The translations under genes and the position numbers were made by a program. The notes beneath the pieces were generated by a model that was given only the letters and a program-made list of their open reading frames with translations, ran no database searches and was not told where the DNA came from. Shown piece by piece: positions 1,853 through 59,394 of a stretch of 64,000 nt of DNA. The stretch's first letter is position 1. Each line of letters starts with the position of its first letter. Source of the stretch: Oscillospiraceae bacterium (GTDB taxonomy: Bacteria; Bacillota; Clostridia; Oscillospirales; Ruminococcaceae); assembly GCA_017461565.1 (NCBI GenBank), contig JAFTXQ010000006.1:1-64000 (forward strand), read 5' to 3'.

Positions 1853-3406
1853 ATGATTAATTATTGGTGGATTACACGTCCCAAAAGAAGATTAAACAGT
1901 ATTCCTGAAGTTCTTGCTTCTATATCAAAAGAATCGCTGAACGCTCAGTGGGCAGGACAAATAAATGCGCACCTTTCTGTTGAAGAAGCTCTTGAAGAAG
2001 CAGGATTAAAAAGAAAGGGCGACAGAAGAGACCAGACCGGAGGAGGGGCGAGAACATATATTGCGTGGGTTAAAAGCCTTGGATTAATGTTTGAACAGGA
2101 AAGCACCAAGCAGCTGAAATTGACTTTGGCAGGTGAAGCTATTCTTGCAGGCGAATCTCCTGTGAAAATTCTTACATCCCAGATTCTGAAATATCAATTT
2201 CCCTCTTCATTTTCCTTGAGCAGAAATGTTAATGTTTCGCCAAGATTTAAAATTCATCCGTTTGTATTTTTGTTCAGACTATTAGATGATAAGCGTATTA
2301 TAAATTTATCTAATGATGAAATTGCAAAAATAGTAATTACGGAAGCAGAAAATGAAACTGAAGAATGCTTTGAAAATATTGTAGCCAGAATACTTGAGTA
2401 TCGTGAAAGAGGCAATGTTTGTCTTGATGAAGATTTTGCTGTAAAGTATGCTTCAAGCAAAGGTGAAGCAAATGCGGATAATCCGTTTGACCATCTTGAA
2501 GATATTGCTAATACTATTATGAATTGGATGGAGTATACTCAGCTTGCGGTAAGGATTGACAGAAAGCTTCAGATTATACCTGAAAAGACAGACACGGTTA
2601 AATCAATTCTCAGCAAAACTTACAAATTCATAGACCATCCTGAAAATCACGAGAATTTCCAGAGAAAATACGGATTGGATTTAAAACACACCAAGGACAC
2701 GAGAAATCTTCTGAAATCAGATTCCATTACTAGCTCAATGCTCATTGAGAGTCAGATTAAGCACGCATTTATTGTCGAATCACTGAAGAAACCTATCTGC
2801 AAAATTACATCTTCATTAATTGAATCTATTTCAGAAAAAACAGGCTGCAACGCAAAGGTTGTTGAAGAAAAGCTTTGTAAGCTTTATCCTAACGGTGCAG
2901 TCGGTTCATTTATGACTGAATACTTTAATATGGCTTTTAAAGGAACTGAGCAGGCAGCTGATTTTGAAAAAGCTACAGTTGAATTATTTAGGGATGTTTT
3001 TGGCTACGAAACCGAACACGTTGGATCGATTGGTCTTACACCGGATGTTCTTCTTGTTTCTGACAGTGATGGGTATCAAGCGATATTTGACAATAAAGCA
3101 TATAGCTCGTATTCAATAAGCAATGACCACCGTAATCGTATGATTCATAATTATATTGAAAATCTCGGCAAATATAGCAAGCACTCTCATCCGCTGGCCT
3201 TCTTTTCATATATAGCAGGAGGATTTGGGAACAAAATTGACAGTCAAATCCAGTCTGTAGTTCAGGAAACTGGGATATCAGGAAGTGCCATAAGCGTTTC
3301 AAATGTTATTTCGCTTGTAGAAAAACATCAAAGCAATCCGTATTCACATAAACAACTTAAGGATTTGTTTAGTTTAGAACGTCAAATATTATTGTCAGAT
3401 TTATAA
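1853..3406 (+). CDS. AlwI-family type II restriction endonuclease
   Basis: This 517-residue protein resembles the AlwI restriction endonuclease family, whose founding member cuts beside GGATC. It begins with the family-like YWWITRPKRRLNSIPE. Near the C-terminus it has a probable PD-(D/E)xK nuclease core: TPDVLLV at about 397 followed by AIFDNKAYSSY. ATG at 1853 is preferred because AAGGAG at 1839-1844 is eight bases upstream; a GTG at 1844 lies inside that site. It follows the PLD-type nuclease by 18 bases and precedes vsr by 17, so all four genes look like one operon. Two unrelated nucleases behind a single methyltransferase is unusual. The family call is good; activity and site are unknown. 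Confidence 0.82.
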   Translation: MINYWWITRPKRRLNSIPEVLASISKESLNAQWAGQINAHLSVEEALEEAGLKRKGDRRDQTGGGARTYIAWVKSLGLMFEQESTKQLKLTLAGEAILAGESPVKILTSQILKYQFPSSFSLSRNVNVSPRFKIHPFVFLFRLLDDKRIINLSNDEIAKIVITEAENETEECFENIVARILEYRERGNVCLDEDFAVKYASSKGEANADNPFDHLEDIANTIMNWMEYTQLAVRIDRKLQIIPEKTDTVKSILSKTYKFIDHPENHENFQRKYGLDLKHTKDTRNLLKSDSITSSMLIESQIKHAFIVESLKKPICKITSSLIESISEKTGCNAKVVEEKLCKLYPNGAVGSFMTEYFNMAFKGTEQAADFEKATVELFRDVFGYETEHVGSIGLTPDVLLVSDSDGYQAIFDNKAYSSYSISNDHRNRMIHNYIENLGKYSKHSHPLAFFSYIAGGFGNKIDSQIQSVVQETGISGSAISVSNVISLVEKHQSNPYSHKQLKDLFSLERQILLSDL

Positions 3407-3423
3407 AGAGGTTGTTTTGCTTT

Positions 3424-3837
3424 ATGGATAATCACAGCAAAGAAGTAAGAAGCTATAATATGTCCCGAATAAAAAGCAAAGACACGAAACCAGAAGAACT
3501 TGTAAGAAAGTATTTGTTTGCACAAGGATTGCGATATAGGAAAAATGATAAACGATATCCGGGGCATCCGGATATCGTCATTCCTAAATATAAAGCAGTT
3601 GTTTTTGTTAACGGATGTTTTTGGCATATGCATGACGGATGTTCAAAATTTGTAATGCCTAAGAGCAGACCTGAATACTGGATTCCGAAACTTACACGAA
3701 ACAAACAACGTGATGAAGAAAACTTCAAGAAACTTACAGAAATGGGCTGGCGTGTCTTTGTGATTTGGGAGTGCGAAATTTCGCAAACAGTTCTCAGAAA
3801 TTTACACGCTGCTATTATATCACAAATAGAATTCTGA
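3424..3837 (+). CDS. vsr: Very short patch repair endonuclease Vsr
   Basis: Vsr nicks DNA 5' of T:G mismatches that arise when 5-methylcytosine deaminates, so DNA polymerase I and ligase can restore the C:G pair. The 137-residue sequence has the family signatures MSRIKSKDTKPE, HPDIVIP and FVNGCFWHMH (metal and zinc ligands), and a C-terminal FVIWECE, at the normal family length. ATG at 3424 is chosen over an upstream TTG at 3412 because the TTG abuts the ribosome-binding sequence AAAGAGG at 3405-3411. Vsr genes normally accompany a C5 methyltransferase, which is exactly the context here. Confidence 0.95.
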   Translation: MDNHSKEVRSYNMSRIKSKDTKPEELVRKYLFAQGLRYRKNDKRYPGHPDIVIPKYKAVVFVNGCFWHMHDGCSKFVMPKSRPEYWIPKLTRNKQRDEENFKKLTEMGWRVFVIWECEISQTVLRNLHAAIISQIEF

Positions 3838-3936
3838 GATAATTGAACGTGAGGGAGTTTTTTTAAATAATTGTACTGTGAGTTTTGGATTAAATGCTAA
3901 AATATAAGCAGGTTATGTTTAAAATGAGGATTATGT

Positions 3937-5085
3937 ATGATTAAAGGATTTATTTACTATAACGACCAAAAAATACCTTTTGTTTTGGACAATTATAGGC
4001 TGGATTTGTTTACAGATGATGAGATACTTTTAGATTTTATAAAAAAGCACAATTTCAAACATCACTACATACTTAAAGGTCAATGTTTTCGTTTCGGAAC
4101 AATGCCGCAGGATATAACACTTTTGATTGAACATTCTATGGGTAGTACATGCTATGTATGCTGTTATATTATTAAAATACTTGATAAAGAAGACGAATAT
4201 AATACTATTGGTTTGCAATCTCCATTTCTTGATGATGTTTTCAAATATAAATATAATTATATAGATATTGTTCGGTCAGGTACAAATCTTGCAATAGAAC
4301 CTAAGGAAATTTATCAAATTCCATTCTTAATGAATCAGCAGCAATATCAATTATCCTTCCGTATAGGTCATAACAATCGGCTTGGCCTTTTAGAAGATTT
4401 GGACAAAAAAGGAGAAGTAATAATACCGATTAAAACCAATGATATTCAAGAGTGTTTTGATATTGCACAAATTTTGTATCGTTTGGCTATGTTTATGACA
4501 TCACATTCAGAGGTACCTTTTAAATGTATCACTTTATATAAGAATGATTTGAAAGTAGGATGGTTTTATCTTCCGCTTGTTTCTGAAAATGCAGTTTCAG
4601 GATATGATGGCTTATTTCATGAATTTGATGTTATGAAATATGTTCCGAAAATTTTGAATAATATAGCATTGGATACAGGAAATAAAATCACGCAAAGCAT
4701 ACCATTAGGCCATTTAGGAAATTTGGATTCTATGTTTTCTCCGCAGCGTTTCATAGAACAAATCACAGCTTTTGAATACTTGTTTGCAAAGCTTGAAAGC
4801 CAAAAATCAAAAGACAAATCATTTCCATTAAAAAAAGAACTGCAATATATGTTTGATGCTTTTCCTAAAATACTGTCAAATACAAAATTGTCATCTGAAG
4901 AAATCAGCAATGAATTAAAAACAATTAGAGTGAACATAGTACATGGATATTCTTATTATTATGATTTTAAGAATGAACCTGATATAAAATATAAGATTAT
5001 ACTTCTTGATAAGTTGATTCTCAACATGAGTTTAAGATTGATTGGTTTTTCGGATTCAGATATAGAAACCTATCCTAGTATGTAA
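3937..5085 (+). CDS. HEPN-domain protein resembling the ApeA antiphage family
   Basis: This 382-residue protein has no signal peptide or membrane segment. Its N-terminal 230 residues look like the all-beta N-terminal domain of ApeA-type proteins. The C-terminal helical part (about 260-375) carries the HEPN ribonuclease signature R331-x4-H336 within TIRVNIVHGYSYYYDF. Known HEPN toxins and ApeA cleave RNA to abort phage infection; this protein would do so by inference only. It lies 99 bases after vsr in the same AT-rich segment and may have its own promoter. SD GAGGA lies at 3926-3930. It is shorter than the ApeA proteins I know of, so a different HEPN subfamily is possible. Confidence 0.6.
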   Translation: MIKGFIYYNDQKIPFVLDNYRLDLFTDDEILLDFIKKHNFKHHYILKGQCFRFGTMPQDITLLIEHSMGSTCYVCCYIIKILDKEDEYNTIGLQSPFLDDVFKYKYNYIDIVRSGTNLAIEPKEIYQIPFLMNQQQYQLSFRIGHNNRLGLLEDLDKKGEVIIPIKTNDIQECFDIAQILYRLAMFMTSHSEVPFKCITLYKNDLKVGWFYLPLVSENAVSGYDGLFHEFDVMKYVPKILNNIALDTGNKITQSIPLGHLGNLDSMFSPQRFIEQITAFEYLFAKLESQKSKDKSFPLKKELQYMFDAFPKILSNTKLSSEEISNELKTIRVNIVHGYSYYYDFKNEPDIKYKIILLDKLILNMSLRLIGFSDSDIETYPSM

Positions 5086-49295: not shown

Positions 49296-50297
49296 TCAGA
49301 CGTTGTTCTGCTCCTCAAGTGCCGCACGGAGCGCTTCGGTGTACTGTGCTTTAAGCTCAGGCGGATCCAGTATCTGTACATTAGTTCCGAATTTGAAGAG
49401 CCATCCGAAAAACGGCATGGGATGCTCTGTTTTTACCTGCACTCTGACCACGAAATGATCGTCTCCGTCGGGATGGATCGAAATATTCTTTCCAAAGCGG
49501 TCGATCACAGCGTTTATCATGCCTGACTCACGTCGGAAGCGCAGCTTGACCGACTCGGCTTCACCGCTGAACATGGAGAAGGTCGAATTGAGATAATCAG
49601 CCAGCCTGAAATTGTCGGGCAGCGGTCTCGAGCGTATAGTACGCACTTCAATGCTTTCCATGCGGTCTATACGGAAGTGTGATATAGTGTTGTATTTTGG
49701 GTAATATGCCACAAGGTAATAGTTCTCCTCGTTCCAGGTGAGGGCGTATGGAGAGCAGGTATAGAAACCCTCTCTGTACTTTTTCTTTGCGCCAAGATCA
49801 TAATCGAAATATCTGAACTTTATCTGCATTTTTTCAGAAATGGCACGATGTATTACATCGATATTTATGTAGATACGTTCATTCATGGATTTTACACGGT
49901 CAGCAACGTATACCTGACGCTGTATCTGCTTGGCTTCGTATTTGCTGGTGAGTGTACCCAGCTTTTTCAGCAGCTCTGCGGATTTCTTTTCAGTAAGAAA
50001 ACGTGAGGACGATACTGCGTCTGCCAGAAGTTTAAGCTCGGGAAGCTCGAAATCACGGCTTGCGACATAATAGCACGAATATTTGCCTTTTGCCGAGATT
50101 ATATCCATTCCAAAAGAGCGCAGTGCTTCGATATCCTCGTACAGGGCTTTTCTTGCCGCCTGTATTCCACATAGCGCAAGTTGTTCTATGATCTCGGGCA
50201 TAGTTATGCTGTGTTCCTCGTCGGTGTGCTCAAGCAGTATTTTGTAAAGATACAGTATTTTGAGTCGCTGAGCCGAAGTCTTGAAGCTGTCAGCCAT
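49296..50297 (-). CDS. WYL-domain transcriptional regulator
   Basis: This 333-residue protein has an N-terminal winged helix (SAQRLKILYLYKILLEHTDEE, ITMPEIIEQLALCGIQAARKALYEDIEAL), a WYL ligand-sensing domain (about 150-225; CSPYALTWNEENYYLVAYYPKY, FRIDRM) and the WCX C-terminal domain. WYL proteins respond to nucleotides or nucleic-acid ligands and regulate defence or stress genes. GGAGGA precedes the start. Its own promoter carries the same motif as the two tiny genes that are divergent from it. Confidence 0.93.
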   Translation of the reverse strand: MADSFKTSAQRLKILYLYKILLEHTDEEHSITMPEIIEQLALCGIQAARKALYEDIEALRSFGMDIISAKGKYSCYYVASRDFELPELKLLADAVSSSRFLTEKKSAELLKKLGTLTSKYEAKQIQRQVYVADRVKSMNERIYINIDVIHRAISEKMQIKFRYFDYDLGAKKKYREGFYTCSPYALTWNEENYYLVAYYPKYNTISHFRIDRMESIEVRTIRSRPLPDNFRLADYLNSTFSMFSGEAESVKLRFRRESGMINAVIDRFGKNISIHPDGDDHFVVRVQVKTEHPMPFFGWLFKFGTNVQILDPPELKAQYTEALRAALEEQNNV

Positions 50298-50376
50298 TTG
50301 TTCTTCCTCCTGTTGTTATCTGAAATATGCTCCTAACTGTCCTCCTTATATCGTGTCAGACTTGTCTTGCATTTCT

Positions 50377-50417
50377 TATTATATATCAGTTGTTGTTTCG
50401 GTTTCAGGACAATTAGA
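50377..50417 (-). promoter_or_regulatory. WYL gene promoter with shared motif (copy 3)
   Basis: On the minus strand, TAATTGTCCTGAAA is followed by a GAAACA and then TATAAT. Exactly 23 bases separate AATTGTCC from the -10 hexamer, as in the two plus-strand copies. This suggests autoregulation by the WYL protein. Confidence 0.75.
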
Positions 50418-50490
50418 TTTAATGATATTATACGCTCGTGCTTGGGAAAAGTCAAGAGCATAACATCCGAAAAAACTTTCGAACAATGCT

Positions 50491-50529
50491 TTAATTGTCC
50501 CGAAAATGAAACAGGCGTTGTGATACAAT
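50491..50529 (+). promoter_or_regulatory. Promoter of first tiny gene with shared motif (copy 1)
   Basis: TTAATTGTCC (50491-50500), CGAAAATGAAACAGG (50501-50515) and -10 TACAAT (50524-50529); 23 bases between AATTGTCC and the -10. There is no good -35 box, so an activator is likely needed. It differs from copy 2 at one base over 25. Confidence 0.8.
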
Positions 50530-50597
50530 ATAGTCACAGGGTCAGACAAGAGGATCCGAAAACATCAGTCAGTTGACATGAAACGGGGGATATGAAA

Positions 50598-50741
50598 ATG
50601 TTGTTTATTTTATGGGTTCTGCTTTATATAGCGTTCGGAATAGCAGAGGATATGAAGAACACCGGGCAGTCTGAAAAACAAGCGCAGGAATACTGTGAAA
50701 ATGAATACGGCTGTGCTGAATATTATGATGTAGCTGCATAA
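50598..50741 (+). CDS. 47-residue single-pass membrane protein (tiny paralogue A)
   Basis: ATG at 50598, with GGGGG at 50585-50589 as ribosome site, opens a frame for a protein that begins MLFILWVLLYIAFGIAED (one membrane helix) and ends in an acidic tail with two Cys (EYCENEYGCAEYYDVAA). The N-terminus aligns with the downstream tiny protein: W-x-LL-x-x-A-x-GI-x-E-x-x-K. The promoter carries the shared motif. No function known. Confidence 0.7.
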   Translation: MLFILWVLLYIAFGIAEDMKNTGQSEKQAQEYCENEYGCAEYYDVAA

Positions 50742-50750
50742 AATGTGACG

Positions 50751-50789
50751 TTAATTGTCCTGAAAATGAAACAGGACGTATGGTAAAAT
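50751..50789 (+). promoter_or_regulatory. Promoter of second tiny gene with shared motif (copy 2)
   Basis: TTAATTGTCC (50751-50760), TGAAAATGAAACAGG (50761-50775) and -10 TAAAAT (50784-50789), again 23 bases from AATTGTCC. GTCCTG (50757-50762) and CAGGAC (50770-50775 region) form an inverted repeat with an eight-base spacer in this copy. Confidence 0.8.
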
Positions 50790-50858
50790 AGTAACATAAG
50801 GGAAACGGCAGTGCCGTTGATGATGATTTTTTAACGGGCAAAGTCCGGGGAGGTAATT

Positions 50859-50984
50859 ATGTTTTTATTCTGGTTATTGCTTGCGCTTGCCATCGGTATC
50901 AGTGAGAATATCAAGGACTCGTATGATGCTTACAAGTACCATCAGACTCCTGAGTATCAAAAGGAGCTTAGGAGATTTCGATAA
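50859..50984 (+). CDS. 41-residue single-pass membrane protein (tiny paralogue B)
   Basis: ATG at 50859, with GGGGAGG at 50847-50853, encodes MFLFWLLLALAIGISENIKD followed by a basic, Tyr-rich tail (YKYHQTPEYQKELRRFR). One membrane helix is followed by a soluble tail opposite in charge to that of paralogue A. Same promoter motif as A and the WYL gene. Stretch 50985-51132 shows no gene. Confidence 0.7.
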   Translation: MFLFWLLLALAIGISENIKDSYDAYKYHQTPEYQKELRRFR

Positions 50985-51132
50985 TATTCGGAATGGACAC
51001 TGAAGCTTTTACGCAATCTTACATTTTACTCCATTTCTTCCTTTTCTTCATCGAAACAGGCGGCTTTTTTGCTGCCTGTTTCCATAATCTGCTAATAAAA
51101 TTATAAAATTTTTGGTTTTTTTGTTTTAGGTA

Positions 51133-51161
51133 TTGAAATCTACGGCGATTTGTGGTAAAAT
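51133..51161 (+). promoter_or_regulatory. Promoter of the dockerin gene
   Basis: TTGAAA (51133-51138) and TAAAAT (51156-51161) are 17 bases apart, 73 bases before the start codon. Confidence 0.72.
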
Positions 51162-51234
51162 TATCGTGTATAAATGTAATCTTTTACGATTTTTTCAACC
51201 ATATAATTTTCTAGCGATTAGGAGAGATCTATCT

Positions 51235-54200
51235 ATGACATTAAAACGCAGGATCACAGTTATATCAACAGCGTTACTGGTGATGGTGGCTGCTGCTGCT
51301 TTCATTATACCAGGTATTGCGGCTTCAGTGCCGATATCTGAGGTGTTCGGAAGCCTGACTGTGACTTACGATCAGGATGATAAGGCAGAGGTAAGCGCAG
51401 GCTTGTCTTATGAAAATAACGTACTTACGCTGACTACATCTGCACCTGTTATCCTCAGCGGTACATCCGTGACTGACAGGGTGGTCGTTGACGGCGCAGC
51501 TGACATAACTCTGTCGGGACTTGATATCGATGTTTCAGCTGTCGATGGTGCGTGCGCACTGATGATAGCGGACGATCTTTCCGATGATGTTACCATAACA
51601 CTTGCAGACGGTACAGAGAACACACTGACAAGTGGTGAGGGCTGTGCTGGTCTTCAGAAGAATGTAACTGACGCTTCGTCCTGCGGTAAGCTGATGCTCA
51701 ACGGCGGTGAAGCTAATACAGGTGTGCTCAAGGCTGTCGGTGGTGCAGGCGGTGCAGGTATAGGCGGTGGCGGCGCCGGCAATACGGCAGGCATCGTTAT
51801 AAACGGCGGCGTTATCACAGCCAATGGTACAGATGGCGGAGCAGGTATAGGTGGCGGCTCGGTTGGCGCATGTGCATCGGTAGAGATAAACGGTGGCTCG
51901 ATAAAGGCGGCGGGAAGCGTGAATTCCGTTATTCCCGGTGATCCTCTGGGCGCTGATATCGGCGATGGATTTGCTTATGATGGTTCTGTGGCGTCTCACG
52001 GCAGGGACGCAGCGCTCGTAAACAGCAACGGAAGAACTGTTGTATGCTTCCCTATCGAAACAAACGGTGAAGTTGTTACTATCAACGGCGTTGCCCATGC
52101 TTCAGAGCATGACGGCGAGCAGAAGATATACCCTTACATAGCTCAGGAATTCAACCTTATATATGTAGGTGACACTAATATTTCGGGCTTGTACAATCCC
52201 ATTGACGGAACCACTGAGCCTGTGCATTTGAATGTGCAGGGTGATGATATCGTATACGGCAGAGATTTCACATATAAGCTTTATGTGGTAGATGATGGAA
52301 ACGGTGGCAGCAAGCTGAACGGTATCCTGCACATCCTCTCGGATAAGCCTATGACGATAAGCGGCGTGGCTGATCTTAATTACTCCACTGACCGTGACCG
52401 TATCTTTATCGAGCCCGTGGGGGCAAATGTTGCACTGGATGGATTTACTATCGGAACTACGGGTTCCGTTGAGATAACGGACGGCGGATATACTTACGGA
52501 TGCGCTCCTGTAACCGTAGGCTTCGGCAAGAGTGGCAACAGCTATGCTGATAACGCTACAACTATTGTTCTTAATAGCGGTACTACCAGCACGTTTAAGA
52601 GCGGTGAGGGCTTCTCAGGCATAGAAAACGGCGAGCTTACATCTCTTGTGATAGCTTGCGAGTCCTATGGCGAAGAGGGCCACAACTGTGATTACTACTC
52701 CTGTGGCAAGCTTGTTGCGTCCGGTGGCAGGGATGGTGCAGGTATCGGCGGCACAAACGGCAGCGATATCACTATCAACGGCGGTTGTGTTATTGCAAAC
52801 GGCGGCGAGAACGGTGCGGCTATCGGTGGCGGCAGCGGAGTTGATGGCAAGACTATATCGATCAACAATGCTGTTGTAACGGCACGTGGCGGCAAGGGCG
52901 GCGCAGCCATCGGCGGTGGCAAGGGTGGCAGTGCGTCTGACATCGTTATAAACGGCGGTTCTGTTTATACAGAGGTGACGGCGCTCAACGGATTTGATCC
53001 TGCTGAGATCGGCGGCGGTGCTTCTGACAGTGCTGACGGCACAGCTGTGACTCCTACAAACGGAGCGGCTAAGGTCTATCTGATGGAGATAAGTAACAGT
53101 GCAAACGACGCTGTTTCCATTGATGGCGTTGAGTATTATCCCACACAGCACGGGGTTGACAGCGATACTAATGTTTATGCATATCTTACAGGCGAGTATC
53201 ATTCTGTAACCAAGGGCAATGATACTGTTGAATATACCTTTGACGGCACAAGATTTGTAACTCCCGATCTCAGGATAAGCGGAGATGAGCTTAAGACAGG
53301 CGTTGATTTCAGCTATAAGGGCGGAGTTGTCACAGTTCTTACTGATAAGCAGATCACTGTTTCGATGGCTGACGGAGTAGATGTGACGACAGATACCATT
53401 GCAGTTGCCAAGGATGTTTCGGCAAGTATCGTGCTTGACGGAGTGAATATCACTGCGGCTGACGATAAGGCGGCATTTCATATTTACGAGAGCAGCACAG
53501 GCAGTGTTACTGTAACGCTTGCAGACGGAAGTGAAAACATTCTTGTCAGCGGTGCAAACTGCGCCGGTATCCAGAAGAACGGCACAAAGGGCTCGCTCAC
53601 AGTAAATGGAAGTGGCTCGCTTGAGGTAACAGGCGGTGAAAACGGTGCAGGCATCGGTGGCAGCAAGGCTAACAGCACTGCAAATGTCACGATAGAAGGC
53701 GGAAGCCTCGTGGTGACAGGCGGCGCAAACGCCCCTGCGATAGGCGGAAATACCGCAACAGGTATAACTGTAAGTGGCGGTTCTGTTACAGCTGTATCTG
53801 ACGTTGCGGGCATCGGCGGCACGACCAGGGCAACAAACATCGCAATCAAGGGAGGCTCTGTAAAGCTCCCCGAAAACAAGGAGATAATGGCTAACGGAAA
53901 CGCTGTTGTTCCTACAAACGGAGCCGCAGCATCTCCGGTTCCCGTATATCTTTACAAGATCGAAGCAAACGGCAGTGTTGTTAAGGTGGACGGAGAGGAA
54001 TATGTTCCTCAGTCTCACAGCGACGCTGACAGCAATATTTATGCTTATCTTACGGGGTCGCTGCACAGTGTTGATATCGGCGGCACATTGACAAATGTGA
54101 TCTATGACCTTGATGCAAATGCTTGGGTGGAGATAGGAACGGATCTTGACCTTTCCTGCGATGAGGAGCTTGTTTATAATACTGACTTTACATATCCAAA

Positions 54201-57200
54201 GGGCGGAGCTCTTACCATAAAGACAGATAAATCTATCACAATCTCCATGGCAGACGGCGTTGATTCTACATCAGACACTATCGTAGTAGCGGCAGACGTA
54301 AATGCGGATATAACTCTTGACAATGTAACGATCAATGCGACTCTTTCAGCTGCGTTCTCAATTGAAAATGCAAGCTGTGGCAATGTCAAGCTGACGATTA
54401 AGAATGATAATACGCTTGTCGGCGCAAACGGTTATGCAGGCATTGAGAAGAACGGTACCGGCGACCTTGTGGGAACGCTTACCATCTCAGGCGACGGTTC
54501 TCTCGATGTTAACGGAGGTGCAGGCGGCGCAGGTATCGGTGCAAGTAAGAACAATGCTACTCAAAATATAGTGATCGACAGCGGCGTTATTGTCGCAAAG
54601 GGTGGCGAATATGCGGCAGGCATCGGCGGTGGTGACGGCAATGTTTCCAACGATGCAGGCAATGCAGAGAACATCACCGTAAGCGGTGGCTTTGTGACAG
54701 CTATCGGCATGAATACGGCAGCGGGCATCGGCGGCGGTTTCGGCGGTGATGCAAAGGATATCACGATAAGCGGCGGCTCGGTGACAGCCGAGGGCGGTGA
54801 GCGTGGTGCTGCGATTGGTGCAGCGGCTGGCAGATCTGTAAATGGTATTATTATTTCGGGCGGTTCTGTAAAGGTTTCTGACAAGACCTTTACAGACAAT
54901 GGCACAGATTACTTTGTGCCTGCTTTCGGTTCAGGCGTGCTCAACACAGACGGCAGATATACCGATGGTTCAGCTGTAACTCCTACCTGTGCAAGTAAGC
55001 CTGTATTCCTTATCGTTGTCGACACAGACGGCCATAGCACGCCCATTTATATTAACGATATTAATATCGGCATAACAAGCCACAGCGATACTGATTCAAA
55101 CCTGTATCTCTATCGTTACGAGGAGCTCGTGACAGTGATGTATGGTACAGATGCGGATACGGATCAGTTCAGACTTTACACAGACGAATATCTTCCTGTG
55201 CCTGAGGCTGATCAGTTTATTTTTGATGGACCTGTCAGCACTGAGTATAACAGTGATCCTAAGGAGGCAGTTGTCAGCGCAATCGATCCTGCTATCGGAG
55301 ATATCACTGTAAAGTATTACGATGAAAACGGCACGGAGCTTGATTCCGCACCCGTTGACGCAGGAACATACACAGTAAAGATCGATGTAGCAAAGAGCGA
55401 GGACTATGCAGAGGCAGAGGATCTGACCGACGCATCCTGGAGCTTTACGATAGATAAGCAGGAGATAGACTTCCCGACTTATACAGTTGCCGAAAAGGTA
55501 TACGACGGCACTGTTTCAGCTAAGGTGAGCGATCTTGTATTCACTGATGGAAACGGAGTAGATCTTGGATTCACATCCGCTGATTATACAGTTTCGGGTG
55601 AGTTTTCCGATGCAAACGCCGACACAGATAAGATCGTTACAATTACAGTTACACTTAAGGAAACGGCTAAAACAAAGAATTATAAGCTCTCGACCGATAC
55701 AGATGTATACGATCAGGGCGTCATTACCGCTGCTGAGATCAAGGTTTCTGGCGCTGTACTTTACGAAAGAGAATACGACGGCACGGTTGACGGTATGGTC
55801 GAGTCTGTGGTGTTCAAGACGGTAGCAGGTAACAAGACGATCAGTGATCTCGAGATAGGCGTTGACTATACTGCAACGGCAGTTTACAACGATGCAAACG
55901 CAGGAACAAATAAATCTGCGGAAGTTACAGCTTCAATGCGTAATTCCGACAGAGCAAATAACTATGTTCTGACAGTTGATACCTACACGGTAACAGGTCA
56001 GACTATCAAAAAGGCTGAGATCGATGTAACAGCCATTGATATCGCAGAAAAGACCTATGATGGTGATGCTGATGCCGAGCTTATCGGTATCACGTTTGAG
56101 TTCAATGGTATGGCTGTTGATCTCGTAAAGGATACAGATTATACTGCTGAGGCAGTATTTACGGATCCTAATGCCGGAACAGGCAAGACGGTGAGCGTTA
56201 CTGTATCCCTCAAGAATACCACATCGGCAGGCAACTTTACAGTCAGCGAGGCTGTCGAGTTTGACAACTTCGAGATACTTAAGGCGGCTGCGCCCACGGT
56301 AGAGGACACGGATGTATCCTTCGCATGGGGTGAAATTGGTGAGCATAGCGTAACTATCCCCACGCTGCCCGATGATCTTGGCGAGGTGTTCGATGTATCG
56401 GCTGATATCACAGATGACGGCGACATCATAAGCGATGTTGTAAGCGTTGATAACGGTACAGTGACATTCACTCTCAATGAAAACGCTGTTGACAATATCG
56501 GCGACAGCGCAATAGTAGAGATCGTTGTGGAAACCCAGAACTATGAGGATATCACAGCGCTTGTGACTATCGTGATAGCTGATAAGGAACAGCCGCAGGA
56601 GCCTGAATGCAATATCACATTCATGCAGGCTAACGACGGAACATTTACAGCTGTGATTGAACAGCAGGATGGCGCTGAATATAAATTCAATGACGGTGAG
56701 TGGAGCACTTCGAACACTGTTTCGGGGCTGGGCTACAACAACACTGTTACAGGTTATATCCGCCTTGTTGAAACTGACACACATTACGGAAGCTCAGAGG
56801 TATCCGCTACCGCTACAACTCCCAAGGATACTGTAAAGACTCCTGTTATCGTGCCGTCAGGAGAGACTACATATTACAACTCTCAGACTGTTATCATCAC
56901 CTGTGCGACAGAGGGAGCATCCATCTATTATACAACAGATGGCTCCAAGCCCGATGCAAACAGTACACTGTACGAGGGCGAGTTTGTCATCACATCCAGT
57001 ATGACAGTCAATGCTGTTGCAATACTTGACGGAATGAACGACAGCGGCCTTGCGACAGCAAAGTTCACAAGAGAGTATTACACCGTTAAGACTCCCGTGA
57101 TAATCCCGACAGGCGATACTGTGTTCTATGATTCACAGACTGTTATCATCACTTGCGCAACGCCCGGTGCGACTATCTATTACACAACGGACGGCTCCAA

Positions 57201-59394
57201 GCCCACTGTAAACAGCACTCCTTACACCGGTGAGTTTACAGTTGCGACAAATACCACTGTAAATGCGATTGCAGTATACGAGGGTATGCTTGACAGTGAG
57301 ATTGCAACTGCAAAGTTTACAAGGGAATACTACACAGTAAAGACACCTGTTATTTCCCCGGCAGGTACTACCTATTACGGAGAGCAGCTTATCAGCATTA
57401 CCTGCGCTACACAGGGTGCTACGATCTATTATACCATCGACGGATCCGATCCTACCGATGAGTACTCCACACGTAAGGTGTACGACGGTCCTTTTGAGAT
57501 CAAAGAGAGCATGACTGTAAAGGCCTATGCGGTTGCTGACGATATGTACGACAGTGCGGTTGCATCTGAGGTATATGTAAGAGATCTTCATACTGTAAAG
57601 TCTCCGGTTATTTCTCCTGCAACTTCTATCTACTATAATTCTCAGACGGTTGTCATAACCTGTGCAACAAAGGAAGCGACCATCCATTATACAACCGATG
57701 GAAGTGTTCCTACTTCGGAAAGTCCCGTATACACAGGACCTTTTGAGATAACTGCTACGACAATAGTCAAGGCAGTTGCGGTTGCTGACGATATGTACGA
57801 CAGCGCCGTGGTTACCGAGACACTTACAAGAGAGTTCTACACAGTTGAAACTCCTGTGATAACTCCTGCGGATGGTTCTGAATTTGTACTGTCCCAGACA
57901 GTCACCATCTCCTGTGCGACAGAGGGTGCTACTATATATTATACAACAGACGGTACGATGCCTACTATAAAGAGCGAGAAGTATACAAAGCCCTTTACTG
58001 TTACAGCGACTACCACTGTTAAGGCTTATGCGGTAGCAACAGAGATGTACGACAGCGCAGTGGCTTCCGCAAAGCTTACAAGAAAGATCGTTCCTGCGGC
58101 AACACCTGTTATCACCCCTGTTGACGGAACAGCGTTTGCAGGTGCGCAGACTGTTACTATCACCTGTGCAACAGAGGGCGCAACTATCTACTATACTACC
58201 AACGGCTCTGAGCCTACAACAAAGAGCAGAAAGTACACAGGTCCCTTTGGCATCACAGCGACTACAACGATCAAGGCGTTTGCGGTATGTGACAAGATCG
58301 ACGACAGTGCGGTGGCAACAGCAAAGCTTACAAAGCAGGTAATTGCTTCGGCTAAGACCGTGGCAACTCCCACTTTCATGCCGGGAGACGGCTCGGAGTT
58401 CGGCTCTGTTGAATATGTAACAATCAACTGTGCAACAGAGGGAGTAATGATATTCTATACGACCGATGGAAGCACACCTACTACATCCAGCTCAAGATAC
58501 ACAGGAAATATTACACTCACCAAGACCACGACGATAAAGGCTATCGCAGTGCATGAGGGTATGAATGACAGTGCTGTTGCTACAGCAAGGTTTACAAAGT
58601 ATACTCCTTCAGGAAGCACAGGCGGTTCAACAGGCGGCTCCGGTAGTTCCGGTGGCTCGGGCGGCGGTTCTTCCGGCGGTACCGGAGGCGGAACCACGGC
58701 TGATAAGGCTGTTCCTTCTATCCACGGTAATGGTATGTCCTGGCCGCAGATCGTTGATGTGATCAAAAACGACTATAAGGGCGGCACTGTTACTATCGAG
58801 CTTAATGGTAACCAGTCAGTTCCCGAGTACGTTATCAAAGCGCTTGCTGACGCTGAATGTGTTGTAACATTTGAGGTCGATGGCACCACTTCCTGGATCA
58901 TTGACGGTAATGATGTTAAAAAACCTGCTAAGGCAGACCTTACTATCACAAATGTTGTAAGGAATGACACACAGAAGCTTGACGGTGATGTTGGCAGACA
59001 GTTCAAAATTTCAAATGTCAATGCTCCTGTTCAGCTGAGCATAAACTTCAAGAAGAGCAATCAGTTCAAATTTGCCGATCTTTACAGGTGGAACGGAACA
59101 AAGTACGTGTATGTATGCAGTGCGAGAATAACCAAGGATGGCACTGCCACACTGCCCTATGTCGAGTCCGCAGGTTACTACACTGTGATGATAAACAATG
59201 AGCTTCACGGAGATGTAAACGGCGACGGCAAGGTTAATGTACTTGATGCTTCTGCAATACTCATGAAGATCGCAGGTATCGCCCTTCCCAAGAATCCGGA
59301 AGAAGTGGATTATAACATTGACGGTGTTGACAGCGTCGCAGATGCGTCCGCAATACTTAAAATGCTTATCAGCACGATTTCTTCCGATGCTTAA
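51235..59394 (+). CDS. Giant secreted multidomain protein with type I dockerin
   Basis: This 2,719-residue protein has a signal peptide (about 1-33) and should be exported and docked to a cohesin scaffold. Four modules (about 35-1300) repeat a beta-helix pattern of the Cthe_2159 type, such as LDGVNIT, TVTLADGSEN and Gly-rich GAGIGGS turns. Then come an MBG-like domain (about 1320-1407), three YDG-type repeats with VYDG/EYDG/TYDG (1408-1685), seven chitobiase-type repeats with ATIYYTTDG (1865-2458), a Ser/Gly linker, an unassigned 170-residue domain, and the dockerin (GDVNGDGKVNVLDASAIL, DYNIDGVDSVADASAIL; last 60). No catalytic domain is visible. ATG 51235 follows AGGAGA. Confidence 0.92.
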   Translation: MTLKRRITVISTALLVMVAAAAFIIPGIAASVPISEVFGSLTVTYDQDDKAEVSAGLSYENNVLTLTTSAPVILSGTSVTDRVVVDGAADITLSGLDIDVSAVDGACALMIADDLSDDVTITLADGTENTLTSGEGCAGLQKNVTDASSCGKLMLNGGEANTGVLKAVGGAGGAGIGGGGAGNTAGIVINGGVITANGTDGGAGIGGGSVGACASVEINGGSIKAAGSVNSVIPGDPLGADIGDGFAYDGSVASHGRDAALVNSNGRTVVCFPIETNGEVVTINGVAHASEHDGEQKIYPYIAQEFNLIYVGDTNISGLYNPIDGTTEPVHLNVQGDDIVYGRDFTYKLYVVDDGNGGSKLNGILHILSDKPMTISGVADLNYSTDRDRIFIEPVGANVALDGFTIGTTGSVEITDGGYTYGCAPVTVGFGKSGNSYADNATTIVLNSGTTSTFKSGEGFSGIENGELTSLVIACESYGEEGHNCDYYSCGKLVASGGRDGAGIGGTNGSDITINGGCVIANGGENGAAIGGGSGVDGKTISINNAVVTARGGKGGAAIGGGKGGSASDIVINGGSVYTEVTALNGFDPAEIGGGASDSADGTAVTPTNGAAKVYLMEISNSANDAVSIDGVEYYPTQHGVDSDTNVYAYLTGEYHSVTKGNDTVEYTFDGTRFVTPDLRISGDELKTGVDFSYKGGVVTVLTDKQITVSMADGVDVTTDTIAVAKDVSASIVLDGVNITAADDKAAFHIYESSTGSVTVTLADGSENILVSGANCAGIQKNGTKGSLTVNGSGSLEVTGGENGAGIGGSKANSTANVTIEGGSLVVTGGANAPAIGGNTATGITVSGGSVTAVSDVAGIGGTTRATNIAIKGGSVKLPENKEIMANGNAVVPTNGAAASPVPVYLYKIEANGSVVKVDGEEYVPQSHSDADSNIYAYLTGSLHSVDIGGTLTNVIYDLDANAWVEIGTDLDLSCDEELVYNTDFTYPKGGALTIKTDKSITISMADGVDSTSDTIVVAADVNADITLDNVTINATLSAAFSIENASCGNVKLTIKNDNTLVGANGYAGIEKNGTGDLVGTLTISGDGSLDVNGGAGGAGIGASKNNATQNIVIDSGVIVAKGGEYAAGIGGGDGNVSNDAGNAENITVSGGFVTAIGMNTAAGIGGGFGGDAKDITISGGSVTAEGGERGAAIGAAAGRSVNGIIISGGSVKVSDKTFTDNGTDYFVPAFGSGVLNTDGRYTDGSAVTPTCASKPVFLIVVDTDGHSTPIYINDINIGITSHSDTDSNLYLYRYEELVTVMYGTDADTDQFRLYTDEYLPVPEADQFIFDGPVSTEYNSDPKEAVVSAIDPAIGDITVKYYDENGTELDSAPVDAGTYTVKIDVAKSEDYAEAEDLTDASWSFTIDKQEIDFPTYTVAEKVYDGTVSAKVSDLVFTDGNGVDLGFTSADYTVSGEFSDANADTDKIVTITVTLKETAKTKNYKLSTDTDVYDQGVITAAEIKVSGAVLYEREYDGTVDGMVESVVFKTVAGNKTISDLEIGVDYTATAVYNDANAGTNKSAEVTASMRNSDRANNYVLTVDTYTVTGQTIKKAEIDVTAIDIAEKTYDGDADAELIGITFEFNGMAVDLVKDTDYTAEAVFTDPNAGTGKTVSVTVSLKNTTSAGNFTVSEAVEFDNFEILKAAAPTVEDTDVSFAWGEIGEHSVTIPTLPDDLGEVFDVSADITDDGDIISDVVSVDNGTVTFTLNENAVDNIGDSAIVEIVVETQNYEDITALVTIVIADKEQPQEPECNITFMQANDGTFTAVIEQQDGAEYKFNDGEWSTSNTVSGLGYNNTVTGYIRLVETDTHYGSSEVSATATTPKDTVKTPVIVPSGETTYYNSQTVIITCATEGASIYYTTDGSKPDANSTLYEGEFVITSSMTVNAVAILDGMNDSGLATAKFTREYYTVKTPVIIPTGDTVFYDSQTVIITCATPGATIYYTTDGSKPTVNSTPYTGEFTVATNTTVNAIAVYEGMLDSEIATAKFTREYYTVKTPVISPAGTTYYGEQLISITCATQGATIYYTIDGSDPTDEYSTRKVYDGPFEIKESMTVKAYAVADDMYDSAVASEVYVRDLHTVKSPVISPATSIYYNSQTVVITCATKEATIHYTTDGSVPTSESPVYTGPFEITATTIVKAVAVADDMYDSAVVTETLTREFYTVETPVITPADGSEFVLSQTVTISCATEGATIYYTTDGTMPTIKSEKYTKPFTVTATTTVKAYAVATEMYDSAVASAKLTRKIVPAATPVITPVDGTAFAGAQTVTITCATEGATIYYTTNGSEPTTKSRKYTGPFGITATTTIKAFAVCDKIDDSAVATAKLTKQVIASAKTVATPTFMPGDGSEFGSVEYVTINCATEGVMIFYTTDGSTPTTSSSRYTGNITLTKTTTIKAIAVHEGMNDSAVATARFTKYTPSGSTGGSTGGSGSSGGSGGGSSGGTGGGTTADKAVPSIHGNGMSWPQIVDVIKNDYKGGTVTIELNGNQSVPEYVIKALADAECVVTFEVDGTTSWIIDGNDVKKPAKADLTITNVVRNDTQKLDGDVGRQFKISNVNAPVQLSINFKKSNQFKFADLYRWNGTKYVYVCSARITKDGTATLPYVESAGYYTVMINNELHGDVNGDGKVNVLDASAILMKIAGIALPKNPEEVDYNIDGVDSVADASAILKMLISTISSDA

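Follow-up and report, generated by a model that had tools for sequence, protein, structure and literature searches.

A candidate DriD-like WYL activator and the promoter box that its gene shares with two tiny genes in an Oscillospiraceae bacterium

WYL proteins are numerous, with about 2.8 per Firmicutes genome on average as stated in PMC6789036, and the binding site, the signal and the target set are known for few of them. Here, we describe a WYL regulator gene and two tiny genes, all three preceded by the same promoter box, in a window of 64,000 nucleotides (the whole stretch of DNA analysed, positions 1 to 64,000 of contig JAFTXQ010000006.1, assembly GCA_017461565.1) from an Oscillospiraceae bacterium related to gut Ruminococcus. 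With a probability of about 0.6, we consider the regulator to be a DriD-like, probably DNA-damage-responsive activator that controls itself and the two tiny genes, which appear to be duplicates encoding small membrane proteins.

The closest described system is DriD of Caulobacter crescentus, a homodimeric activator which is triggered by single-stranded DNA and switches on repair genes together with didA (PMC12340889, PMC4211646). As described in PMC12340889, the DriD dimer lies over a poor -35 element at one fixed distance from the -10 and holds the polymerase via contacts with the beta subunit and the C-terminal domain of the alpha subunit. DidA and SidA, the latter of 29 amino acids (aa), are small membrane division inhibitors (PMC4211646).

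The window regulator resembles DriD in being a WYL+WCX protein, with DriD as its closest solved relative by sequence, and in having a pseudo-palindromic site over the -35 position, a fixed distance to the -10 and target promoters with a weak -35. Both target sets hold repair genes, which here are found via relatives, and that of DriD includes the small membrane division inhibitor DidA. In contrast to DriD, it belongs to another phylum, its box targets include recA, addB, sbcDC, immA-like and HIRAN genes, and two tandem tiny genes lie alongside the regulator. PafBC of mycobacteria is a heterodimer of two proteins, contacts DNA at about -24/-26 and is not known to bind in the absence of RNA polymerase, whereas here one gene goes with an inverted repeat that spans about -40 to -23, and the sequence match of PafBC to the window protein is weak (E value 0.05). 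SiwR of Mycobacterium smegmatis is likewise described as a homodimeric WYL activator beside its own targets, with a 19-base-pair (bp) imperfect palindrome between -35 and -10; its palindrome, however, lies nearer to the -10, with GGA at -26, and its targets are DinB/YfiT-like genes (PMC10693628). BrxR/CapW regulators are also WYL proteins binding inverted repeats and often acting on their own gene, but their repeat (11 bp arms, 5 bp spacer) is placed downstream of the -10 and serves repression (PMC9122601).

Three promoters and their box at the window locus

At 50,290-50,990 the window carries three copies of a common promoter unit, AATTGTCC[C/T]GAAAnnGAAACA, one directed towards the WYL gene on the minus strand and two towards the tiny genes on the plus strand. 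The features of the locus are:

49296..50297, minus strand: WYL regulator gene, 333 aa, with WYL and WCX domains
50394..50411, minus strand: box of the WYL gene's own promoter, TGTCCTGAAACCGAAACA
50378..50383, minus strand: -10 of the WYL promoter, TATAAT, 10 bp past the box
50496..50513, plus strand: box of tiny gene 1, TGTCCCGAAAATGAAACA
50524..50529, plus strand: -10 of tiny gene 1, TACAAT, with TGTGA before it (extended -10)
50592..50741, plus strand: tiny gene 1, 49 aa, with a single hydrophobic N-terminal stretch
50756..50773, plus strand: box of tiny gene 2, TGTCCTGAAAATGAAACA
50784..50789, plus strand: -10 of tiny gene 2, TAAAAT, with TATGG before it (extended -10)
50859..50984, plus strand: tiny gene 2, 41 aa, with a hydrophobic N-terminal stretch and a charged tail; a GGGGAGG ribosome-binding site lies just upstream

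The first-pass annotation had reported one motif at three promoters, its fixed distance from the -10 and a single difference between the two plus-strand copies, and all of this was borne out. The pattern AATTGTCCYGAAANNGAAACA has three mismatch-free copies in the window (50394-50414 on the minus strand, 50493-50513 and 50753-50773 on the plus strand), the -10 hexamer starts exactly 23 bases after AATTGTCC in 3/3 promoters, each time with the box upstream of it, and the plus-strand copies have TTAATTGTCC[C/T]GAAAATGAAACAGG in common, with one difference in 25. A single further match in the window (4084-4104) has three mismatches; dinucleotide-preserving shuffles of the window, with three mismatches allowed, gave a mean of 0.06 matches and a maximum of one per shuffle. 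Throughout the bacterium's own genome (2.19 Mb) these three are the only perfect copies, two other matches having three mismatches each. A chance origin of the three-promoter motif was rejected on the basis of the shuffled windows and of reversed-pattern controls.

The box is an 18-bp imperfect inverted repeat, TGTCC-N7-G-NNACA, at the usual location of the -35 element; its window form is TGTCC-N8-AAACA, and four relatives (loci L014, L065, L066 and L069) display the perfect repeat TGTCC-N8-GGACA. Constant among relatives are TGTCC, the G thirteen bases in and the terminal ACA, while the centre varies. Since its end lies 10-11 bp before the -10, the box covers about -40 to -23 and is centred on the -35 position, a geometry that fits the earlier proposal of a regulator bound there, the binding itself being predicted from the sequence. 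A set of 49 distinct sites, some of them near copies of one another, comprises 37 with a spacing of 10 and 12 with a spacing of 11, these spacings and much of the box, including parts of both 5-bp half-sites (TGTCC and NNACA), being imposed by the search pattern. A direct repeat with GAAAnnGAAACA as its unit was rejected because relatives preserve TGTCC and ACA but vary GAAA.

That the promoters lack a proper -35 holds statistically: when TTGACA is aligned at spacers of 16-18, its best match averages 3.22 mismatches over the 49 sites and 3.42 in random sequence of equal composition. The motif-less WYL loci with TATAAT (18/46) have a -35 with 2.0 mismatches on average, four of them being perfect. 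Features of an extended -10 are frequent at the 49 sites, with T three bases before the -10 in 42/49 and G two bases before it in 38/49; in the window they are present at both tiny-gene promoters and, in that register, absent from the WYL promoter. With a TATAAT-like -10, and with TTGACA-N17-TATAAT in box-less relatives, an alternative sigma factor is not the favoured explanation.

The WYL protein itself, encoded by one gene at the locus and represented by one match in its own genome, scored 48.9 bits for WYL and 39.4 bits for WCX in Pfam, both above the cut-off, and 14.6 bits for the N-terminal helix-turn-helix HTH_11, under the cut-off of 25. The best matches in a sequence search of the PDB were DriD chains (five of six, E 3e-7 to 9e-7), which cover the WYL and WCX domains only (residues 175-326), and the FRxDRM of the WYL domain is preserved in the alignment with DriD. 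We take 7u02, 7tzv, 8tp8 and 9cu3 to be DriD. Besides the DriD and PafBC chains, the search returned nothing at E<=1, BrxR/CapW-type chains included. Entries 9PFQ, 9PFV and 9PGA are DriD according to PMC12340889.

The box in related genomes

WYL relatives were gathered by protein alone: 39 of 61 related genomes had a match at E<=0.001, and further loci came from the genome collection (14) and from 297 family genomes (21 at E<=1e-100), giving, after four duplicates had been dropped, 60 loci with 261,446 bases. These contained 16 core box matches and none of the reversed pattern. All but one of the 16 (L019) have a nearby -10, in 13 loci, and 14/15 of them keep it at 10-11 bp, so that motif and spacing recur at the WYL genes of relatives; the absence of conservation by which the first-pass annotation would have been refuted was not observed, and its interpretation is supported. 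In 12 of the 13 loci the orientation of the site is towards the WYL gene or an operon that has it as its last gene, in the window also towards the tiny genes, and in L062 it is away from the WYL gene; two of the 60 loci have weaker sites outside the core count, a divergent copy in L060 and L086-type variants. On a tree of 41 WYL proteins, in which L012 was labelled box-bearing although its box sits on another contig, 5 changes account for the box label, compared with 12.5 in shuffles. The strict pattern TGTCCNGWAAMYGNNACA-N9-12-TANNAT was found in 3/43 genus genomes at five places, 5/5 beside a WYL gene, and among 295 order genomes in the bacterium's own genome only.

In 24 chosen genomes, TGTCC-N7-GRNACA-N10-11-TANNAT occurs at 30 places in 16 genomes, compared with one place for the reversed control and three for a control pattern shifted by one base, none of the latter adjoining a WYL gene by coordinates. 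Among 396 family genomes, 25 contain a tight pattern with TATAAT, at 44 places in total, and none contains the reversed control. A WYL relative at E<=1e-60 is encoded by 195/396 genomes, namely by 21/25 of those with the box versus 174/371 others. With the best WYL match at E<=1e-92, 14/30 genomes have the box, versus 11/366, the cut having been chosen afterwards and the genomes being related. The surroundings of 43/44 tight sites were read (G663:C144 excepted), and the sites precede the following:

WYL gene or an operon ending in it, 11/44: G000, G016, G425, G443, G512, G601, G553, G437, G337 (WYL truncated, WCX only), G694, G663
recA, 3/44: G368, G663, G676 (as nth-recA-recX)
addB, 2/44: G364, G676
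sbcD-sbcC, 1/44: G434
M78/ImmA proteases, 4/44: G497, G261, G344, G337 (followed by a Y-family polymerase in G337)
HIRAN without WYL, 1/44: G344
hsdM, 1/44: G437
OLD-like ATPase with anti-phage family matches, 1/44: G555
IS1595-type transposase, 5/44, all in G663: one by Pfam, three near copies and one (C144) unread
small proteins, 6/44: 32 aa in G546; 34 aa in G649, beside the WYL gene; 57 aa in G676 and G640; 56 aa in G443 and G512
no theme, 9/44: three in G422, two in G223, one each in G443, G601, G553 and G419

Family searches above the cut-off confirmed RecA in 3/3 cases and supported SbcD, M78, HsdM, HD and the transposase, as well as HIRAN, one instance of which lies 0.2 bits under the cut-off. 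For SbcC, AddB, Nth, RecX and the polymerase the named families were the best ones, yet below the strict NCBIfam cut-offs, the polymerase being above that of Pfam. HIRAN and WYL genes form operons in L038, L039 and G337 (with the truncated WYL), and ImmA accompanies WYL in L037. With the box at repair and other genes of relatives, the tiny genes would be one branch of a wider, DNA-damage-like regulon. The description of the window locus as a self-contained regulon, given earlier, fits its own genome, with three sites only, while in relatives the box is also found at recA, addB, sbcDC, immA-like and other genes.

Some further arrangements were observed. In L168 (G649), L172 (G364) and L194 (a Subdoligranulum plasmid), the inverted repeat and a -10 are located immediately behind the WYL gene instead of in front of it, and the G649 copy drives the gene of a hydrophobic 34-aa protein. 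L150 (G337) and L037 (G608) look like mobile cassettes: by eye they contain relaxase-like genes, and they encode an XRE-like protein and an ImmA-type protease. The G337 cassette additionally encodes HIRAN and HD proteins and the Y-family polymerase, and its WYL gene is truncated in the middle. G663 displays near-identical promoters with the box at contig ends (L132, L153, L154, L155; C144:38-71), and an IS1595-type transposase gene lies behind one of these; the box seems to have been acquired there by an insertion sequence, which might therefore move upon DNA damage. A 187-aa protein without a Pfam family has its own box in each of L096, L107 (G422, twice) and L060 (G603), and in G422 each copy is followed by a gene of 285-296 aa.

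In viral contigs, no close WYL relatives were found; the box pattern has 7 matches there, on contigs that encode no WYL relative. WYL relatives reach a best identity of 48% in plasmids and 54% in phage records, and the three plasmid or phage loci examined (L192-L194) have no box before the WYL gene. In L193 (Monoglobus record, 2224-4909), where no box of the TGTCC type was found, radC and a second JAB-domain gene immediately precede a WYL relative, with an ImmA gene near.

The tiny genes and other small proteins

The two tiny proteins are 38% identical over their alignment, and with the box common to their upstream regions the genes look like a tandem duplication. Neither matched a family in Pfam or NCBIfam, and none of their relatives was found in viral contigs. 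Both have a single hydrophobic stretch at the N terminus, some 15 residues long and with a 15-residue Kyte-Doolittle mean of 2.5-2.6, which makes a membrane location likely, the stretch being short for a membrane span.

Homologues of tiny protein 2 are encoded in G026, G337, G567 and G519, the last three at E<=1e-5. That of G026 (L086) is 60% identical, with the box variant TGTGCTGCAAACGGGACA and TATACT at 10 bp. This homologue and rpmG are neighbours at the end of one contig, another contig of G026 ends 40 bases from the WYL gene, and the WYL gene of G028 adjoins rpmG and nusG; the rpmG neighbourhood in both genomes therefore suggests that in G026, too, the tiny gene with its box probably stands beside the WYL gene. 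Comparing tiny gene 2 with its G026 homologue revealed 22.7 changes per 21.7 synonymous sites and 32.3 per 98.3 others, and with that of G337, over 29 codons, 0.69 synonymous versus 0.20 other changes. Such mostly synonymous change is as expected of a real protein and points to selection on the tiny protein.

For two of the homologues in G337, G567 and G519, TGTAC-N8-GTACA is present about 120-145 bases ahead of the start codon. After the tiny gene, both G337 and G567 have another small reading frame, which contains KGGG(G)CLVSALSIIG, and a similar small frame, judged by eye (KGGGCLISALSIIG), lies between the box and the WYL gene in L036. Other conserved small-protein families stand directly under the box, one of 57 aa (L147 in G676, L158 in G640) and one of 56 aa (L100 in G443, L101 in G512). 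Further along the window, a frame of 2,753 codons (51133-59394, plus strand) encodes a secreted repeat-rich protein, the tail of which (GDVNGDGKVNVLDASAILMKI...) appears dockerin-like by eye.

Activation, repression and other explanations

The geometry, the weak -35, the nearest solved kin and the targets in relatives are common to this system and DriD, and together they point to a DriD-like activator with positive feedback. The WYL protein would bind, as a dimer, the 18-bp inverted repeat that takes the -35 position in sigma-A-type promoters whose own -35 is weak, and would recruit RNA polymerase from there, the fixed spacing of 10-11 bp to the -10 keeping it in register with the polymerase. 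The signal would probably be damage-derived single-stranded DNA, bound in the WYL domain. In its own genome, the protein would drive its own gene and the two tandem-duplicated tiny genes, in relatives DNA repair and defence genes, and the tiny proteins may be effectors that damage induces and that act at the membrane, perhaps by braking division as SidA and DidA do, though this last role is a guess with the odds against it. The predicted binding of the box by the WYL protein is well supported; the dimer, the activation, the signal and the location and role of the tiny proteins are what we infer beyond that.

Several observations weigh against this reading. The DriD box, as described, is ATACGAC-N7-GTCGTAT, as opposed to TGTCC-N8-GGACA here, and with these differing half-sites we do not file the window regulator as DriD; moreover, DriD is not self-regulating, whereas the WYL genes of the window and of relatives carry the box. 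A promoter box is missing from 46/60 protein-fetched loci plus L019, several of these 47 being ended by contig ends, and many close WYL orthologues, such as L008-L011 and L013 (57-62% identical) have a normal promoter and no nearby box, L009, L011 and L013 displaying plain TTGACA-N17-TATAAT. Among the four outside homologues of the tiny gene, only that of G026 has the box at -35. Four box genomes have no WYL protein at E<=1e-60 (G419, G546, G555 and G497; G546 is 56% complete, and G497 has a WYL relative at 1.5e-43). Of the tight sites, 9/44 drive genes without a DNA-damage theme, such as two secreted 473-aa proteins in G223 and a SIMPL protein in G443. No repair gene stands under the box in the window genome, so the damage link rests on relatives. 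Finally, the L069 box has its -10 at 5 bp, and in L187 a -10 precedes the repeat, an order that would suit a repressor unless the repeat is part of a divergent promoter.

These last two exceptions keep repression alive as an option. Whether the protein activates or represses had been left open by the first-pass annotation, and a BrxR/CapW-like repressor over the -35, blocking polymerase until released by a ligand, would control the same regulon with the sign reversed. Sites that overlap the promoter of the regulator's own gene are shared by many repressors, the extended -10 could give basal activity without a -35, and BrxR, a WYL protein, is described as repressing via inverted repeats, albeit with its repeat downstream of the -10 (PMC9122601). 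A repressor, however, needs no fixed register, so that a constant spacing speaks against plain repression. The -35 covered by the box looks random, and the solved relatives closest in sequence, DriD and at a much greater distance PafBC, are both activators. Spacing and weak -35 thus tip the question towards activation, and we regard repression as unlikely.

The box might instead belong to another regulator, LexA or an XRE protein for instance, with the WYL gene merely among its targets, and recA, addB, nth and polymerase genes are indeed classic SOS targets, to which the four box genomes lacking a close WYL protein can be added. LexA is usually self-controlling, yet no lexA was seen under the 43/44 inspected sites, judged by eye from first reading frames, with no search aimed at lexA genes or LexA boxes; the Gram-positive LexA consensus fits the window promoters poorly (2-4 mismatches in 14). 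As WYL genes are the commonest target and the strict pattern occurs in the genus beside WYL genes only, we hold this explanation to be very improbable. A phage-defence or mobile-element regulator, sensing invading DNA and with the tiny proteins as toxic membrane effectors, would agree with hsdM and the OLD-like ATPase among the targets, with the L037 and L150 cassettes beside relaxase-like genes, and with phage as a possible source of single-stranded DNA; WYL proteins are also reported to accompany defence islands (PMC9122601). But recA, recX, nth, addB and sbcDC serve house-keeping repair and are not parts of defence islands, and viral contigs contained no close relatives of the WYL or tiny proteins, which makes this improbable, even though defence and DNA-damage readings overlap.

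For the DriD-like activator, a more far-reaching and tentative proposal, which we hold lightly, is that the WYL protein founded a LexA-independent DNA-damage response of Oscillospiraceae, triggered by single-stranded DNA, able to take over recA, addAB and sbcCD, travelling in ImmA/HIRAN/polymerase cassettes, and using small membrane proteins, re-invented in several lineages, as division-arrest effectors. No report of a WYL damage regulon in Clostridia was found in the open-licence PubMed Central literature. Sequence alone here yields a site, its geometry and a target list in a large group of gut bacteria, and with them two testable ideas, namely that a WYL activator may act beside or instead of LexA in the damage response of Clostridia, and that the unannotated proteins of 30-57 aa under the box may be damage-induced division or membrane effectors.
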